Shown: positions 24,015 through 31,234, numbered from the stretch's first letter. The stretch is DNA of 32,028 nt from Desulfovulcanus ferrireducens (GCF_018704065.1 NZ_JAGUQP010000029.1:1-32028), one strand, 5' to 3'. The notes: generated by a model from the letters alone, not told the origin. A program made the numbers and translations.

Positions 24015-24791
24015 TCAAACAAATAAATTTTTAACCCAATCTAAAAATTTTTTAAGCTTAGACACAATTTCCTCTCTTTTTTGCGGCAGAGTAGCCGGAC
24101 CCACTTCCAAAGTCAAAAGATTGCCGTACTTCTTTTCTCTTAACAAACGCAGAAAATTATCCAAAGGCAATTCTCCATCGCCTGGCCAAAGATGCTCCTG
24201 TAGACCGCGTGCATCAGAAAAGTGGACATTGACGAGTATGTCCAGGGGGAACTCATCCAAGGCTTGAAGAATATCCTTGTTGCTTATCCCGAGGTGACAC
24301 ACATCCAGAGTCAGATTAACATTTTTGTTTATACATTGCTCAATATGTCCTTTAAAGGGATCTCGCCCAAAAGGATTGTCTGCCACTGTAGGCAAATTTT
24401 CCAGAGATAAGCCTACATTGGCCTTTAAATCTTCAGGCAAATTTCTGGTTTTGGCATACCACCAGAAATGAGCGAGCTGACTGAGTTTGAAAGCTGGAGG
24501 ATGCAAGGTGATATTTTGCAGCTCCGGGAGTTTATTCCCCAAAATAACGCTTTTTTCCCAAGCCCGCAGGTGTCCACCCCATAGACTCCATTGCCTGAAA
24601 GGGGCATGCAGACTTAAAATTGGCATGCCCCGGGTTTGAGTCATGGTTTGTTGAACATCCAAAAGTTCAGGGTGATTGAGAATGAGTTCGAGTCCGTCAA
24701 AACCTGCATCCCTGGCAATTCGCGCGCATTCAGACAGGGGCAGGTGGAATAAGCAACCTGAAGAAAGAAGGAACGTGGGTTGGTCGGCCAT
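24015..24791 (-). CDS. Sugar-phosphate isomerase/epimerase-like TIM-barrel protein
   Basis: A 258-aa protein of the xylose isomerase-like/AP endonuclease-2 TIM-barrel superfamily. Features are ARDAGFDGLELIL near the N terminus, ISLHAPF-like ILSLHAPF, GLSLENLPT, LTLDVCHLGI, VNVHFSDARG with GDGELPLDNFL, and LLTLEVGP. The Glu, Asp, His and Glu residues at the strand ends suggest a metal site. The family covers epimerases, isomerases and endonuclease IV relatives, so the substrate is unknown. It lies 15 bases upstream of the NifU-like gene and is probably co-transcribed with it. Confidence 0.82.
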   Translation of the reverse strand: MADQPTFLLSSGCLFHLPLSECARIARDAGFDGLELILNHPELLDVQQTMTQTRGMPILSLHAPFRQWSLWGGHLRAWEKSVILGNKLPELQNITLHPPAFKLSQLAHFWWYAKTRNLPEDLKANVGLSLENLPTVADNPFGRDPFKGHIEQCINKNVNLTLDVCHLGISNKDILQALDEFPLDILVNVHFSDARGLQEHLWPGDGELPLDNFLRLLREKKYGNLLTLEVGPATLPQKREEIVSKLKKFLDWVKNLFV

Positions 24792-24823: not shown

Positions 24824-25501
24824 TTAACTAACTTTCGGATAAAAATGATCTCTGACCCAGAAAAGAAGGTCGTATTTTTGCTCAAGTTCTGCTCGCAGCT
24901 TATTTTCTTCGGCTTTTTCCATACCGTGGATACGGATGTAGACATGTCTAAACCCTGGTTCCGGCTGCTCATATGCACTGAGGATACTTATAATTCTGGC
25001 TTTATGAGCCCTCAGGTCATCCAGAATCTTTTTCAATGAACCAGGCTCATTAGGGAGCTTAAAGCCCATCTGCACCCCATCCAGGTAAACTCCGGTGATA
25101 TTGACAAGAACCTTAAATATATCCGTATCAGTAATGATACCGACCACATTCTGATCATCGTCAACAACAGGCAGGCCTTCGATTTTTTTATCCAGCATTT
25201 TGGCGGCTGCTTTTTCTACAGTATCATTAATATTTATAGTGTAGGGATTAGGTGTCATTATATCCTTAACCTTGATCTCAGAGAGAAGATAATAGAGTTC
25301 ATGCACATCTAAAGTAGTGGCTTTAGATGGGGAAGCCTCTTTAATATCTCTGTCGGTGACAATGCCCACCAACTTGCCCCTTTCATCTACAACCGGCAAT
25401 CTACGAATATTTTTATCCTTCAAAATTTTAGAAGCCTTCATCATAGATGTGTCAGGGGTAACAGTGATAACATCTTTGGTCATCCAATCCTTAATTAGCA
25501 T
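24824..25501 (-). CDS. CBS-domain pair plus ACT-domain regulatory protein
   Basis: A 225-aa cytoplasmic sensor-type protein. CBS 1 spans about residues 1-60 (WMTKDVITVTPD, RRLPVVDERGKLVGIVTDRD) and CBS 2 about 75-135 (IMTPNPYTIN, EGLPVVDDDQNVVGIITDTD). A C-terminal ACT-like domain follows at about 145-215 (LPNEPGSLKKILDDLRAHKA). CBS pairs bind adenine nucleotides and ACT domains bind amino acids or other small ligands. There is no catalytic domain. It is cut off from the symporter genes upstream by a strong terminator but lies on the same strand. A strong AAGGAGG Shine-Dalgarno is present. A regulatory link to the symporter is only a hypothesis. Confidence 0.9.
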   Translation of the reverse strand: MLIKDWMTKDVITVTPDTSMMKASKILKDKNIRRLPVVDERGKLVGIVTDRDIKEASPSKATTLDVHELYYLLSEIKVKDIMTPNPYTININDTVEKAAAKMLDKKIEGLPVVDDDQNVVGIITDTDIFKVLVNITGVYLDGVQMGFKLPNEPGSLKKILDDLRAHKARIISILSAYEQPEPGFRHVYIRIHGMEKAEENKLRAELEQKYDLLFWVRDHFYPKVS

Positions 25502-25603
25502 CTCTGCCTCCTTTTTTATTCAATATTAAACAGGATGGTAACTATGGAAATCTATTAAACATTATTGGACGGACTGGCAATGGCAAAAATAAATCGGACT
25601 CAT

Positions 25604-25635
25604 AAAAAAATGCCGGGTAAACCCGGCATTTTTTT
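25604..25635 (-). terminator. Intrinsic terminator of the symporter operon (possibly bidirectional)
   Basis: TGCCGGGT (25611-25618) and ACCCGGCA (25621-25628) form a perfect stem with a minimal AA centre. The stem is flanked by seven A on the left and seven T on the right, so it works on either strand. On the minus strand it begins directly at the symporter stop codon (TAA, 25634-25636). Confidence 0.92.
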
Positions 25636-27208
25636 ATGTTTGCTCTGGCCCATGAAGTATGGCCATGACCTTATCCACATCCGGCGGGAGAGCATCCTCC
25701 TTTTTGGATGCATATTCCAATTTAGAAAAGATATAGATAGCCAAAAAGCCCAGGACCATGACAAAGCCTCCGGGATTCTTAAATTGAAGCATTGTCGGCA
25801 GATAAGATTTTCCTAAAATCATGATAAATGAGCCAATTATGCCGGTTAACAGTCCGGCAATGGCTCCGTTTTTGGTCATTTTGGGCCACCAGATACCCAT
25901 GACCAAGACAGGAAAAAACGTTGATGCGGCAATGGCAAAAGCCAACCCCACAAGGACAGCGATCTGCATCTTTTCAGCCGCAAAACCCAGTGGGATCCCC
26001 AAAAGACCGATACCAACTGAGGCCAGGCGGGCTATTTTGACCCGATTTTTTTCCGGCATGTCCGGATTAAATATATTGACCACAAGATCGTGTCCAATAG
26101 CACCGGCACAGGCAATTATCAAACCTGCAACAGTAGACAAGATGGCCGCAAAGGCTCCCGCGACAACAATGCCGAGAAGGATCTGACCGCCAAAATAAGA
26201 CCCGGCTACAGGCACAGCCAAATTTTTACCATTCTCTGCCAGCCATTTGGTCAGATGAGGGCTCAACCCAAGCTCATTGCTGCGTAAAAACACATAGCGC
26301 ATGACATGGCCCACATAGGGAGACAAAATATAGAATAGACCTATAAGGAGAAGAACATAAATAACCGTACGCCGGGCAGCCTTGCCATCCGGAGCAGTAT
26401 AAAAACGAACCAGAATATGGGGCAAACCGGCTGTGCCAAACATCAAAGCCAGGAGCAAGGACAGAGTATCTTTGAGGTTAGTCAGCCAGTAACCTGGTTG
26501 AATATAGGCACTGCCCACAAATGTTTTATTGGTAATGGGCTCTGTACCGTTAAAAGATTGTATAAAATTTACCACATCCGTGTAGGTGTAACCCTTGAGC
26601 ACAAAGGGAATAAAAGCTAAAAGGAACATGGAGCCGAATAAAATCCAGAATTGGACCAATTGGTTGATGGTGGTACCTTTCATCCCGCCCACAGCTACAT
26701 AAGCGGTAATGATCAAAGCGATAACCACAATGGCAGCCTGATAACTCATGCCCAAAAGCAACCCCATGACCTTACCCGCTCCAAGCATTTGCGGGGCCAT
26801 GTAAAACAACGAAATAAAAAGAACACCAATGACCCCCAGAACTCTAGCTCCCTTGGAATGAAACCTTTCTGATACAAAATCCGGCACTGTATATTTACCA
26901 AATTTTCTAAGAGGTGAAGCCATAAATAAAAGTAAGGCAATGTAACCTACAAAAAAACCAAGCGCATAGATTATACCGTCAAAACCTTTCAAAAAAGCGA
27001 TTCCAGCTACACCCAGAAAAGAAGCGGCACTCAAATAGTCACTGGAGATCGCTGAGGCGTTGATAAAGCTGTTTACCTTACGACCAGCAAGATAATAATC
27101 AGCCGATGTTTTCTGGATGCGAAACATCCAGGTGGTGATGACAGTAAAAAGAAGCATCAATCCTATCAGGACCAAAGCAGTAACAGGGACTTGATAGCCA
27201 ACGTCCAT
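25634..27208 (-). CDS. Sodium:solute symporter, acetate permease (ActP)-like
   Basis: Inner-membrane permease of the SSS family, 524 aa, with about 13 hydrophobic segments. The N-terminal region has KTSADYYLAGRKVNSFINAS and AISSDYLSAASFLGVAG, and the middle has GTAGLPHILVRFYTAPDGKA. Segment AAILSTVAGLIIACAGAIGHDL matches the ActP/YjcG branch. A DUF485 small membrane protein encoded 14 bases upstream is the usual companion of that branch, supporting uptake of acetate or a similar short monocarboxylate driven by sodium. The start ATG 27206-27208 is preceded by GGGGAGAG. The substrate is inferred from family and context. Confidence 0.9.
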   Translation of the reverse strand: MDVGYQVPVTALVLIGLMLLFTVITTWMFRIQKTSADYYLAGRKVNSFINASAISSDYLSAASFLGVAGIAFLKGFDGIIYALGFFVGYIALLLFMASPLRKFGKYTVPDFVSERFHSKGARVLGVIGVLFISLFYMAPQMLGAGKVMGLLLGMSYQAAIVVIALIITAYVAVGGMKGTTINQLVQFWILFGSMFLLAFIPFVLKGYTYTDVVNFIQSFNGTEPITNKTFVGSAYIQPGYWLTNLKDTLSLLLALMFGTAGLPHILVRFYTAPDGKAARRTVIYVLLLIGLFYILSPYVGHVMRYVFLRSNELGLSPHLTKWLAENGKNLAVPVAGSYFGGQILLGIVVAGAFAAILSTVAGLIIACAGAIGHDLVVNIFNPDMPEKNRVKIARLASVGIGLLGIPLGFAAEKMQIAVLVGLAFAIAASTFFPVLVMGIWWPKMTKNGAIAGLLTGIIGSFIMILGKSYLPTMLQFKNPGGFVMVLGFLAIYIFSKLEYASKKEDALPPDVDKVMAILHGPEQT

Positions 27209-27222
27209 AACTCTCCCCCCCC

Positions 27223-27474
27223 TTATAACTTTTTTATTTCATCTTCCATGTTATTGGCCTTTTTGACATAATATATAAAGACTATCCAAGTTATGGGATA
27301 GACAAAAACAGCAACCAGAAAATAATGAAGAGGAAGAGAGAAAATCGTGACTCCGGCAATCCAGTCTTTGGCCAAATAGGTTAACAAATAGATAAAAAGA
27401 ATGAATAAAAAATACGGAATTCCAAAAATCAAAGCGAATCTTAATTGTTTTTTGCGTAATTCATTGACGTCCAT
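27223..27474 (-). CDS. DUF485-type small membrane protein, symporter companion
   Basis: An 83-aa protein with two hydrophobic helices (FALIFGIPYFLFILFIYLL and HYFLVAVFVYPITWIVFIYY) after a basic ELRKKQLR leader. This is the DUF485/YjcH plan found with ActP-like permeases. The start is taken as ATG 27472-27474 because GGAGGT lies six bases upstream. The in-frame ATG two codons earlier (27478-27480) touches that Shine-Dalgarno directly and could not be used well. It is co-transcribed with the permease. Its biochemical role is unknown, perhaps assembly or regulation of the transporter. Confidence 0.85.
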   Translation of the reverse strand: MDVNELRKKQLRFALIFGIPYFLFILFIYLLTYLAKDWIAGVTIFSLPLHYFLVAVFVYPITWIVFIYYVKKANNMEDEIKKL

Positions 27475-27480
27475 GGCCAT

Positions 27481-27489
27481 ACCTCCTTT
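27481..27489 (-). promoter_or_regulatory. Shine-Dalgarno deciding the DUF485 start
   Basis: AAAGGAGGT on the minus strand abuts the first ATG (27478-27480) but is ideally spaced for the second (27472-27474). Confidence 0.6.
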
Positions 27490-27521
27490 TCCTCTTTATT
27501 ATAAATGATTATAGAAAAATT

Positions 27522-27549
27522 ATTATCAGGATTTCTTTAACAATTGCAA
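27522..27549 (-). promoter_or_regulatory. Candidate promoter of the DUF485-symporter operon
   Basis: On the minus strand TTGCAA (plus 27544-27549) and GATAAT (plus 27522-27527) are spaced by 16 bases, about 48 bases before the start codon. The region is A+T-rich, so chance matches are likely. Confidence 0.3.
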
Positions 27550-27678
27550 GTAAATATTTTTTTTAACAGTAACTGCAACCTATTGAACATTTATGATAAA
27601 TATAACCCATTTAACCCTCATTTTTTGCCGTTTAACGCACATTATTCGTTGGCCGGAGTTTTTTAAGGAGTTGTAATT

Positions 27679-28719
27679 ATGGGCGCTTTGAAGTTAGAGC
27701 AAAACCTTAAGGACATCGACTTTAAATCTCTTATTGAAGAGGGAAAGTTGGCGGAAATACGCAATCTGCGCCTTAGGCTAGTGCAAAGCTGGATGAGCCA
27801 AAAAATTTCAACCTATAAGCTGTGCAAATTAATTTCTGGATTTAATGAAAAGGTTATTCAGAATACTTTGACTATATTTTCCCTGGAGTTCTCCTGGCTA
27901 AGAGAATGTACTTTTTTGGAGTTTGGTTCAGGAGGCAGAGGAGAACAGGTACTCACATCCGATCAGGACAATGGGCTTTTATGGCTAAAAAAACCCGATG
28001 AGTATGAGTTGGAAGAGGCCTGCCAAAATATAATTATGACGTTGGACGGAGCAGGTCTAAACCTATGTCCGGGAAATGTGATGATCAATAATCCAGACTG
28101 GCGCGGAGATAAAAAACAATGGAAAGAAAGGCTTATTAATTGGTTGTCGAATCCGCTGGAAAAAGGACCCTGGCAATTTGGGTTGATTTTAGATTTCACC
28201 CCCCTTTTTGGCTGCCCAGATGAGGCTTTGGAACTTAGAGAAGAATTATGGGAGTATGTACGCACCAAACCTTTGGTTTTAAAATTTTTAATCGATGAAC
28301 TGCAACAATATAGAGTCCCGCTCTCTTTTTGGGGCAATTTCATTCTGGAAAAAAAGGAAGCACACAGAGGGCAATTAAACCTTAAAAAAAGTATCCTGGC
28401 TCACCTAACCAACGGAGTTCGAATTTTGGCCTTAAAATATGCGCTTAAGGAAGTGAATACGGTGGATCGCATCCGAAAACTACAGGAAGCAGGTCACATA
28501 GAAAAGAGCATGGCACAGGCCTTAAAAGAACTCTGGCAATGGACCCAACTAAAAAGGATAGAGATTGGCACTTCCTGTCTAAAAGAACAAAAACAAGGAC
28601 ATAATTACCTGAACCCTTATTTGTTGCCTAAAGATGAACAGAAAAGACTGAAAAGATGGCTGAATAATCTAGACAAATTTTTGAAATTGGTCTTTATGGG
28701 GACGCAATTTAGTGTCTGA
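27679..28719 (+). CDS. DUF294-type putative nucleotidyltransferase
   Basis: A 346-aa protein. Its central motif EFGSGGRGEQVLTSDQDNGLLW (about residues 75-97) is the DUF294 version of the nucleotidyltransferase GS...D.D signature, related to GlnD. The C-terminal part (from ~200) fits the DUF294_C helical domain, e.g. LKKSILAHLTNGVRILALKY. In many bacteria this unit carries N-terminal cNMP-binding and CBS domains, and these are missing here. It is divergent from the DUF485-symporter operon across 198 bases, an arrangement suggesting control of, or by, the transporter. A CBS-ACT protein is encoded beyond the symporter. The substrate and target are unknown. An AAGGAG Shine-Dalgarno precedes the ATG. 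Confidence 0.84.
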   Translation: MGALKLEQNLKDIDFKSLIEEGKLAEIRNLRLRLVQSWMSQKISTYKLCKLISGFNEKVIQNTLTIFSLEFSWLRECTFLEFGSGGRGEQVLTSDQDNGLLWLKKPDEYELEEACQNIIMTLDGAGLNLCPGNVMINNPDWRGDKKQWKERLINWLSNPLEKGPWQFGLILDFTPLFGCPDEALELREELWEYVRTKPLVLKFLIDELQQYRVPLSFWGNFILEKKEAHRGQLNLKKSILAHLTNGVRILALKYALKEVNTVDRIRKLQEAGHIEKSMAQALKELWQWTQLKRIEIGTSCLKEQKQGHNYLNPYLLPKDEQKRLKRWLNNLDKFLKLVFMGTQFSV

Positions 28720-28759
28720 TTCTCAAGCTGTATTTTTAGAACTATAAAAGAATGTATCT

Positions 28760-28783
28760 TGTTTTTACCCTGTCGTAAAAACA
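28760..28783. promoter_or_regulatory. Perfect 8-bp inverted repeat upstream of larC
   Basis: TGTTTTTA (28760-28767) and TAAAAACA (28776-28783) are perfect complements around an 8-nt spacer, 46 bases before the larC ATG and 40 after the DUF294 stop. It could be an operator for a dimeric regulator. The A/T-only stem makes a terminator unlikely. Confidence 0.3.
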
Positions 28784-28829
28784 GTATGCGGGGAGACTAT
28801 TGAATTTCCATTTAAAAGGATCAAACAAT

Positions 28830-29981
28830 ATGAAAACTTTATACATTGACTGCGAGTTTGGCATCAGCGGAGATATGTTTCTGGCGGCTCTGGCTGACCT
28901 TGGTCTAGACTTCTCTAAACTGGAAAAAATTTTTGAAGAAGCCGGGCTCAAAGCAACTATTGAAGTTAAAGAAGAACAACGGTGTGGTGTTGGTGGCAGG
29001 CAGGTGGACATAATTTATAATCAAAATCAGCCCCTCAGGACACTTAAAGATATTTTGCCTCTAGTTCAAAACTTGAAGATACAAGAAAACATTTTTCACA
29101 AGGTAGTTCAGGCCTTTAAGCAACTGGCCCGGGTAGAAGGCAGAGTACACAACATACACCCAGACAAGGTCCATTTTCACGAAATCGGGGCTATGGATAC
29201 CTTGGTGGACATAGTCGGGGCCTTTTGGGGACTACATGAGTTGGGCATTGAAAAGGTCTATTCTTCACCTGTCCCCTGGTTCCGGGGAAAAATAAATTGT
29301 GCCCACGGCAAAATATCCCTTCCAGCCCCGGCCACTACCCTTTTGCTCCTGGACAAGCCTGTCCAGGATTCAGATTTTGACTGGGAAATCATCACCCCAA
29401 CAGGCGCACTGATTATAGACCAGGTAGTTGATGAATTTAAACCTGGTCCTTGTGGTATTTTACGCGGAACTGGTATCGGTTTTGGGAAAACCAGGAAAGG
29501 ATTTAATGGCCTGCGTGTTTATTTACTAGAAGAGGAAATAACCCCTGCTGATGAGGTTTATGTCCTGGAGTCAAACGTTGACCATCTTACAGGGGAAGAG
29601 TTGGGGCTTTTTTTTGACCAGGTATTGGCCTCAGGGGCCCTGGACGTCATCTATTTGCCCGGAGTGATGAAAAAAAACAGGCCAGGCGGAATGCTCCAGG
29701 TCTTGTCCCCGCCTGAACATTTGCACACAGTGGAAGATATCTTTTTTAAACATAGTCTGACCCTGGGCTTAAGGATACGCAAGGTGCAAAGGGTCATGCT
29801 TCCTCGGCAGGAATCAACGGCCAGGACAAAATGGGGGGATGTGCAGGCCAAAAAGATAACCTGGAAAAATAATCAATTTTTGCGGCCGGAAAATGAATCG
29901 CTAAAAAAATTAGCCCAAAAAACAGGTCTTTCTGTGGTCGAACTAAGACTTTTAATGCAAGATTTACAGGAAATAGACTAG
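28830..29981 (+). CDS. larC: Nickel-insertion enzyme for the nickel pincer cofactor, LarC
   Basis: LarC inserts nickel into the pincer nucleotide cofactor of lactate racemase (LarA) and other LarA-like racemases/epimerases, in a CTP-dependent reaction. The 383-aa protein begins LYIDCEFGISGDMFLAAL and has VHFHEIGAMDTLVDIVGAF, ITPTGALII, GIGFGKTRKG and SNVDHLTGEELG, all LarC blocks. It is one continuous frame, unlike species where larC is split by a programmed frameshift. I chose ATG 28830-28832, with AAAGGA upstream. A TTG ten codons earlier is less likely. larA, larB and larE are not in the window. Its end overlaps the convergent U32 gene by four bases. Confidence 0.93.
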   Translation: MKTLYIDCEFGISGDMFLAALADLGLDFSKLEKIFEEAGLKATIEVKEEQRCGVGGRQVDIIYNQNQPLRTLKDILPLVQNLKIQENIFHKVVQAFKQLARVEGRVHNIHPDKVHFHEIGAMDTLVDIVGAFWGLHELGIEKVYSSPVPWFRGKINCAHGKISLPAPATTLLLLDKPVQDSDFDWEIITPTGALIIDQVVDEFKPGPCGILRGTGIGFGKTRKGFNGLRVYLLEEEITPADEVYVLESNVDHLTGEELGLFFDQVLASGALDVIYLPGVMKKNRPGGMLQVLSPPEHLHTVEDIFFKHSLTLGLRIRKVQRVMLPRQESTARTKWGDVQAKKITWKNNQFLRPENESLKKLAQKTGLSVVELRLLMQDLQEID

Positions 29982-31234
29982 GGTCTGTGCAACCGGATAA
30001 AAATATTTTCCGTGACCAGGGGATGGTCAGTGCAAAAAATGGCGCTCAACCCCGGGTGGACCAAAGAAATTTGCTCGCCGTTTTCCTTTTCCAGTGCATA
30101 GTCACTGTTTTTTAGTACTGGCCGCTTTAGCCCCGGACAGACGAGTTCAACATCTAAATTTCTATCCCATTTTTCTTTGACTCTGACCCGCCATTTATGC
30201 GCATCTAGCTGCTCAACGACTTGGGCCAGGATAATTTTCTTCTCATTTTTGGCCAGGGGGGAAACAAAAATTTTTCTTTGTGGCAGAAAAAAGCCGGAAC
30301 CCAAAGGCCTGGTACTGGTATTTCTAAGCTCCCGGAGGTAAATATCCAGGTCAAATTCTTTGCTCTCCAAAGCATTGAGTGCTGTTTTATATACATCCAC
30401 AACCTGAGCCAGGTAGGATGTGGTTTTCATCCGCCCTTCAATCTTCAGAGAAGCAATTCCAACTTTTTTCAGCCAGCTTAAATACTTGATCAAACACAGG
30501 TCTTCGGCACTAAAAAGCCTGGAAAACTCTTCCTGCTCGATAACTTCCCACAGAACCTTTCCGGGCCTGGTCTTCTCCTCAACCTGAAAGGTTATGGGCC
30601 TATACTCAAAACGGCAAGGATGTGTGCATAACCCTTGATTGGCCGAACGCTCATTCATGTAGGCACTCAAAAAGCATCGCCCGGATATGGCCATGCACAT
30701 GGCTCCGTGCACAAACAGTTCCAACTCAATATATTTAACCTGGGTTGCTATGGCTCGAATGGCCTTAAACCCCAGTTCGCGAGCCAGGTTGACCCTCTTT
30801 ATGCCCATCTTTCGCCAAAAGGCCACGCTTGCGCTGTTACTGGTATTAGCCTGGGTACTCAGGTGGATGGGTATGTGCGGACAGACCTTTTGGGCCAGGC
30901 TAATAATCCCCGGGTCAGCAATGATCAGCCCATCAATCTGCAACGGGGCCAGCCGGTGAAGATATGCCTCCACCGTGGGAAGATGGTGTTCAAGGGCAAG
31001 CAGATTGAGACAAAAATAAACCTTCACGCCTTTTTCATGTGCGAATTCTAAGGCGCGCTCCAGATCATCAAAGTCAAAACCTTGAGTTTTGGCGCGAAGG
31101 TTTAGGTCTGTACCGCCCAGATAGACGGCATCGGCTCCGTAAAAAATGGCTGTTTTCAGCTTATCAAAATTACCTGCCGGGCAAAGAAGTTCAGGATATG
31201 ACATTTTCATCACAGCAGAGACATAGCGTATCAT
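29978..31234 (-). CDS. U32 family protein (TrhP/RlhA/UbiU-like, annotated as peptidase)
   Basis: A 418-aa member of the U32 family. Its characterised members (TrhP, RlhA, UbiU/V) are Fe-S proteins hydroxylating RNA bases or ubiquinone precursors; proteolysis is doubtful. The N terminus reads PELLCPAGNFDKLKTAIFYG and GADAVYLGGTDLNLRAK. The family signature with cysteines is ELFVHGAMCMAISGRCFLS followed by NQGLCTHPCRFEY. The last Cys belongs to a probable four-Cys cluster site. Later come SAEDLCLIKYLSWLKK and ASLKIEGRMK. I keep ATG 31232-31234. ATGs at codons 9 and 11 also fit homologue starts and none has a clear Shine-Dalgarno. tRNA 5-hydroxyuridine formation (TrhP) is a reasonable guess for the role. 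Confidence 0.88.
   Translation of the reverse strand: MIRYVSAVMKMSYPELLCPAGNFDKLKTAIFYGADAVYLGGTDLNLRAKTQGFDFDDLERALEFAHEKGVKVYFCLNLLALEHHLPTVEAYLHRLAPLQIDGLIIADPGIISLAQKVCPHIPIHLSTQANTSNSASVAFWRKMGIKRVNLARELGFKAIRAIATQVKYIELELFVHGAMCMAISGRCFLSAYMNERSANQGLCTHPCRFEYRPITFQVEEKTRPGKVLWEVIEQEEFSRLFSAEDLCLIKYLSWLKKVGIASLKIEGRMKTTSYLAQVVDVYKTALNALESKEFDLDIYLRELRNTSTRPLGSGFFLPQRKIFVSPLAKNEKKIILAQVVEQLDAHKWRVRVKEKWDRNLDVELVCPGLKRPVLKNSDYALEKENGEQISLVHPGLSAIFCTDHPLVTENIFIRLHRP

Follow-up and report, generated by a model that had tools for sequence, protein, structure and literature searches.

A sensorless DUF294 protein, a DUF485-like protein and an SSF symporter form a co-inherited module beside an AcuB homologue in Desulfovulcanus ferrireducens

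Introduction

In Pseudomonas fluorescens, the cyclic nucleotide monophosphate (cNMP)-CBS-nucleotidyltransferase protein Pflu5625, ActP and a DUF485 protein belong to one CrbS/R acetate regulon (PMC5715377). The GlnD-GlnK-AmtB system likewise combines a nucleotidyltransferase with a small partner and a transporter, and the nucleotidyltransferases of the two systems are connected by family structure: polymerase-beta nucleotidyltransferases with a HEPN-related C-terminal domain have been described, and the helical C-terminal domains of GlnD and DUF294 fall in the same Pfam clan (PMC3710099). A further described protein, the acetoin and acetate utilisation regulator AcuB of Bacillus subtilis and Geobacillus, has the domain order CBS-CBS-ACT. 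Bacillus AcuB binds adenosine mono-, di- and triphosphate (AMP, ADP and ATP) and diadenosine tetraphosphate (Ap4A), inhibits the deacetylase AcuC and via AcuC acts on acetyl-CoA synthetase, and published accounts disagree on whether Ap4A strengthens or abolishes the inhibition of AcuC (PMC13121692, PMC13039410).

Here we compare with these systems a locus of Desulfovulcanus ferrireducens in which the genes for an SSF-family symporter and a DUF485-like protein lie between a DUF294 gene and a gene for a CBS-CBS-ACT protein (hereafter CBS-ACT). The window, which is the whole stretch of 32,028 nucleotides that was analysed (NZ_JAGUQP010000029.1:1-32028), is contig 29 of a 60-contig, 2.59-Mb genome of the order Desulfovibrionales (GCF_018704065.1, labelled G000 below). 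A sequence-only reading of the locus had taken the DUF294 and CBS-ACT proteins for detached parts of a fused regulator that may control carboxylate uptake by nucleotidyl transfer or by sensing nucleotides. We find that the DUF294, DUF485-like and symporter genes are a three-gene unit inherited together, and that the CBS-ACT gene is an independent, older neighbour and not a conserved part of this module.

Results

All four open reading frames proved real, with the boundaries that the sequence-only reading had given them. In the window, the DUF294 gene (27679-28719, + strand) is divergent from the pair formed by the DUF485-like and symporter genes (27480-25634, - strand). We surveyed the co-occurrence of these genes in 247 Desulfovibrionales genomes, using a profile of the standalone DUF294 proteins that separates them (E < 1e-110) from fused homologues, which reach only 1e-52 or weaker, and an orthologue threshold of E < 1e-150 for the symporter. 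The DUF294 subfamily and the symporter orthologue were found in identical sets of 35 genomes. In 34 of these the two genes share a contig, are divergent and adjacent, and lie 440-874 bp apart with space for a DUF485 gene; in the remaining genome, G225, they are severed by contig ends. The DUF485-like gene occupies the same position in the module loci examined, the exception being L166, where none was called, and the same arrangement is seen in families f1 and f3 as well. No further members were found at E 1e-56 in a 395-genome sample of the phylum, and a one-sequence scan of the genome contigs recovered a single relative. Mean identity within the module is 61% for DUF294, 68% for DUF485 and 86% for the symporter (34 DUF294 and 30 symporter sequences), with symporter identity of at least 77% throughout.

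The DUF294 protein (346 amino acids) exceeds the Pfam cut-offs for both domains of its family (PF03445/PF10335), scoring 96.4 bits for DUF294 (E 1.7e-27, cut-off 21) and 115.3 bits for DUF294_C (E 2.7e-33, cut-off 22.5), and its core is of the polymerase-beta nucleotidyltransferase type, GSGGRGEQ..SDQDNGL, with a helical C-terminal domain after it. Domain scans found no CBS or cNMP domain on this chain, on its g22 relative at L089 or on the G019 protein; the window protein and the scanned module relatives are thus not fused regulators of the cNMP-CBS-DUF294 kind, which carry both sensor types on one chain, and the DUF294 part does stand alone as had been read. Seven residues (G83, S84, R87, E89, D95, D97 and D172) are invariant across the 34 module sequences; the catalytic-type G-S and three acidic residues among them (G83, S84, D95, D97 and D172) are also invariant in a 12-sequence set that includes fusions, so a family-wide lack of catalytic acidic residues is not what we observe. 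In a tree of 62 sequences the window subfamily forms its own clade, apart from the cNMP-CBS-DUF294 fusions, with 100/100 support. It is the sole DUF294 protein of its genome, the sensorless form being the only DUF294 match in each of G000, G004, G007, G010 and G019; a second, weak match in G000 is GlnD, whose gene follows amtB (C21, L002:32-3231) in what is the genome's own nucleotidyltransferase/transporter pair and a useful analogue. The DUF294 profile scores this GlnD at 20.7-21.2 bits (cut-off 21), and an hhalign comparison of the two gave an E-value of 2.9e-4 but a probability of 40%, with SDQD lined up opposite SDID and D172 opposite the LDMRF Asp. The window protein is probably an enzyme that tags proteins with nucleotides.

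Fused relatives occur in the same sample. The G003 and G020 fusions combine on one chain a cNMP domain, a CBS pair, DUF294 and DUF294_C, and in the co-directional operon of G003 and G006 the fusion is accompanied by a DnaQ-like exonuclease, a small membrane protein and an SSF symporter. The module shares with this operon and with the Pflu5625/ActP/DUF485 regulon (PMC5715377) the DUF294 plus DUF294_C core, a DUF485/DUF4212-type protein and an SSF symporter. Unlike the fusion operon, it is divergent and has no cNMP domain, CBS domain or exonuclease; its motif reads GSGGR..SDQDNGL against GSEGR..TDQDNAL in the fusions, to which identity is about 25-31%. The exonuclease gene (L077:10344-11090) lies between the fused DUF294 gene and the symporter gene in the classical operon. 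A second sensorless DUF294 type of 374 amino acids, found in G025 and G033 beside a different symporter of 515 amino acids (L074:8988-11656, L075:9395-12063), branches within the fusions; because it nests there, loss or absence of the sensor domains occurred more than once.

The symporter (524 amino acids, 25634..27208, - strand; SSF 1.8e-74) is VC_2705/ActP-like. It passes the cut-off of the VC_2705 family TIGR03648 (342.7 against 320.75) and fails that of the ActP equivalog TIGR02711 (298.7 against 1099.25), so the earlier label "acetate-type" is an inference; the substrate is probably acetate or another short carboxylate. The small membrane protein (85 amino acids, 27223..27480, - strand) is DUF485/DUF4212-like (Pfam DUF485 E 1.3e-5). 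Against a DUF485 cut-off of 28 it scores 25.5, its G019 orthologue 31.1 and three others 18.9-26.7, with similar DUF4212 scores. The conserved tyrosines of the DUF485-like protein are Y23, Y35, Y53, Y61 and Y71.

On the other side of the symporter, the CBS-ACT protein (225 amino acids, 24824..25501, - strand) has an ancestry of its own. It contains two CBS domains (5.9e-39) and an ACT-like C-terminus; Pfam ACT stays under its cut-off (E 0.13), but crystal structures of AcuB type align across both parts (5awe over residues 1-195, 1.3e-44; 9s4w over 2-194, 3e-25; 9s4v, 9e-22), bearing out the CBS-CBS-ACT assignment and identifying an AcuB homologue. It resembles AcuB in domain order and length, and differs in its surroundings, as no acuABC operon is present at the window locus and its neighbours are LarC, U32, a Grx-FTR-NifU-GltX string or a TIM barrel. 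It differs too in that AcuC-type deacetylases are missing in G004, G007, G010 and G019; G000 encodes one PF00850 protein, away from the locus. The symporter is indeed flanked by CBS-ACT and DUF294 genes, but the two flanks are of different kinds, since DUF294 stands next to the symporter in 35 of 35 module genomes and CBS-ACT in only four. CBS-ACT is present in 197 of the 247 genomes, 163 of which lack the module, and of the 32 module genomes for which coordinates are available, the window genome and three g4 genomes (G000, G004, G007 and G010) have it linked to the module and 28 have it unlinked. It also coexists with cNMP-CBS-DUF294 fusions, side by side in two genomes, its neighbour in G003 being a complete fusion operon. 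The CBS pairs of the fusions match it at just 27-35% identity.

Gene order around CBS-ACT was compared at 58 loci, 10 inside the window's family and 48 from other families. DUF294/symporter genes flank it at six, all inside the family, and at none of the 48 outside. In the other families LarC is its commonest recognised neighbour, in divergent orientation (20/48), with U32 and PHP genes often further out; in the window's family CBS-ACT also heads the Grx-FTR-NifU-GltX string. The window retains the gene for LarC (nickel pincer cofactor biosynthesis; 28800..29981, + strand), which would mark the other edge of an ancestral LarC-CBSACT site, and a peptidase U32 family gene (29978..31234, - strand), a likely piece of an ancestral PHP-U32-LarC-CBSACT string, with the module in between the LarC and CBS-ACT genes. 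Most simply read, this order points to insertion of the module into the older U32-LarC-CBSACT string; the reverse case, repeated loss of the module, appears less parsimonious. In this one family, two distinct DUF294/symporter cassettes occupy the interval that LarC and the AcuB homologue enclose (L077:7057-14043 and window 24824-29981). Cassettes lie directly beside CBS-ACT in two forms, the window/g4 type and that of G003 and G016, with LarC on the far side in the case of the window, G007 and G003. The anchor may be LarC, because it adjoins the fused cassette in G005, G006, G014 and G015, where CBS-ACT does not. A xylose-isomerase-like TIM barrel gene (24015..24791, - strand) lies 33 bp downstream of CBS-ACT; it is also near CBS-ACT where the module is elsewhere (L170, L171, L227), and at three g22 loci such a gene lies 1.6-1.9 kb downstream.

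A 17-bp perfect hairpin with A/T flanks (25601..25638; -25.4 kcal/mol, z -6.65) spans the symporter gene's end and is a predicted bidirectional intrinsic terminator dividing the symporter and CBS-ACT transcripts. Hairpins at this junction in the window, G010, G004 and G003 each fold far better than shuffled sequences, so a transcript separate from that of the symporter is most likely for CBS-ACT. One divergent promoter region (27481..27678) serves the DUF485-symporter pair on one side and the DUF294 gene on the other, and we compared it with genus g22. There, the intergenic regions between DUF294 and DUF485 (L089-L113 and L157-L166, e.g. L163:9470-9625) contain direct repeats of GGTNAACGG: 27 such regions hold 57 sites, against an expectation of 0.43 from shuffled sequence, although the regions are related and the sites do not amount to 57 independent events. 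The repeats keep a single orientation throughout and are phased, spacings of 72, 51 and 21 bp being favoured. Of 12 genomes searched for a composite repeat element, 7 have it, solely at the module locus, with no match for the reversed control, and the g22 repeats are a putative locus-specific operator. Three f1 genomes have a weaker version and the window at most a degenerate trace; judged by eye, the repeats bear no resemblance to the CrbR "ACTU" motif, a 17-bp imperfect inverted repeat. For the locus as a whole, PADLOC gave no defence link and an Rfam scan no match.

Discussion

The reading that we favour, with a probability of roughly 0.5, is that the locus joins an inherited three-gene module to an independent AcuB homologue and that the module's enzyme nucleotidylates a membrane partner. 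In such a scheme the sensorless DUF294 enzyme would attach AMP or uridine monophosphate (UMP) to the DUF485 protein or to the cytoplasmic face of the symporter, and the tag would switch carboxylate uptake, much as tagging of GlnK by GlnD sets AmtB. With neither cNMP nor CBS domains, DUF294 activity might depend on how strongly the gene is transcribed, or on a substrate or partner that binds the enzyme directly. What is observed is the gene content, the linkage, the conservation of residues of catalytic type and the separate descent of CBS-ACT; that the enzyme is active, with which nucleotide, on what target, for which transported substrate and with what effect on uptake, is predicted here from sequence. 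Covalent nucleotidylation of a membrane partner seems the most likely mechanism, the exact class of target can be put forward only tentatively, and reversible, GlnD-like modification of the DUF485 subunit or symporter is likewise a conjecture that could well be wrong. The module also departs from the GlnD-GlnK-AmtB system, with which it shares a related catalytic motif, in having no PII protein and an enzyme with neither HD nor ACT domains.

Several observations weigh against this reading. Likeness to GlnD is weak (BLASTP E 0.12), a PDB profile search with the DUF294 protein returned no solved structure and spurious helical-repeat matches only, and AlphaFold modelling on two sequences gave a predicted local distance difference test (pLDDT) score of 45 and was unusable. 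The literature found gives no biochemistry for any DUF294 protein and reports no DUF294 target, and growth of P. fluorescens was affected to a negligible degree by deleting pflu5625, actP or the gene for the DUF485 protein (PMC5715377). A single genus supplies 30 of the 35 module genomes, which leaves few independent events and means that the formal co-occurrence p-value of 2e-43 overstates independence. Co-inheritance is, moreover, an association, from which it does not follow that the symporter is the enzyme's target.

That the CBS-ACT and DUF294 proteins are instead the parts of a split cNMP/CBS-DUF294 regulator acting as a complex was attractive, as the two flank one symporter in G000, G004, G007 and G010 and AcuB proteins work via protein partners (PMC13121692, PMC13039410). 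We consider it very improbable and reject it: the genes are unlinked in most module genomes, most CBS-ACT genomes have no module, the nearest structures are AcuB-type, a predicted terminator lies in between, and the older gene order places CBS-ACT beside LarC. Because CBS-ACT coexists, even side by side, with complete fusions, it is not their detached sensor. The earlier proposal of nucleotidyl transfer controlling uptake thereby loses its split-off half; its other part is a fair hypothesis, given the linkage to symporter and DUF485 genes and the intact acidic residues.

A functional reason for a neighbourhood that involves the AcuB homologue is possible. The protein might sense adenine nucleotides and tune acetate activation, with carboxylate symporter cassettes favoured nearby and no complex between DUF294 and CBS-ACT. 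Such loose cooperation, to which we assign a low probability, would fit the two cassette types directly beside CBS-ACT, the control of acetyl-CoA synthetase by Bacillus AcuB through AcuC (PMC13121692, PMC13039410) and an intact acs with PKTRSGK in G000. Seeming in-frame stops within acs turned out to be its ordinary stop codons. The linkage is absent, however, from 48/48 CBS-ACT loci outside the family and 4/10 inside, and the known AcuB partner is missing from most of the module genomes tested. About equally unlikely in our estimation is a soluble target encoded elsewhere, such as Acs or a PII-like protein, with the symporter linkage reflecting co-regulation only. GlnD and GlnE relatives do modify soluble proteins, and a divergent regulatory region common to both sides provides for co-expression; yet 38 of 41 relatives have an Acs that scores above its cut-off, and most of them lack this DUF294 subfamily, and exact co-occurrence is with the symporter only.

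An AcuB homologue that adjoins a symporter can be wrongly taken for a split sensor. DUF294 proteins adjoin acetate-type symporters in several lineages, and the compact three-gene version makes the question of enzyme and target testable with three proteins. If the enzyme does reversibly modify the DUF485 subunit or the symporter, an SSF-family carboxylate transporter would be under the control of its own covalent nucleotide switch.

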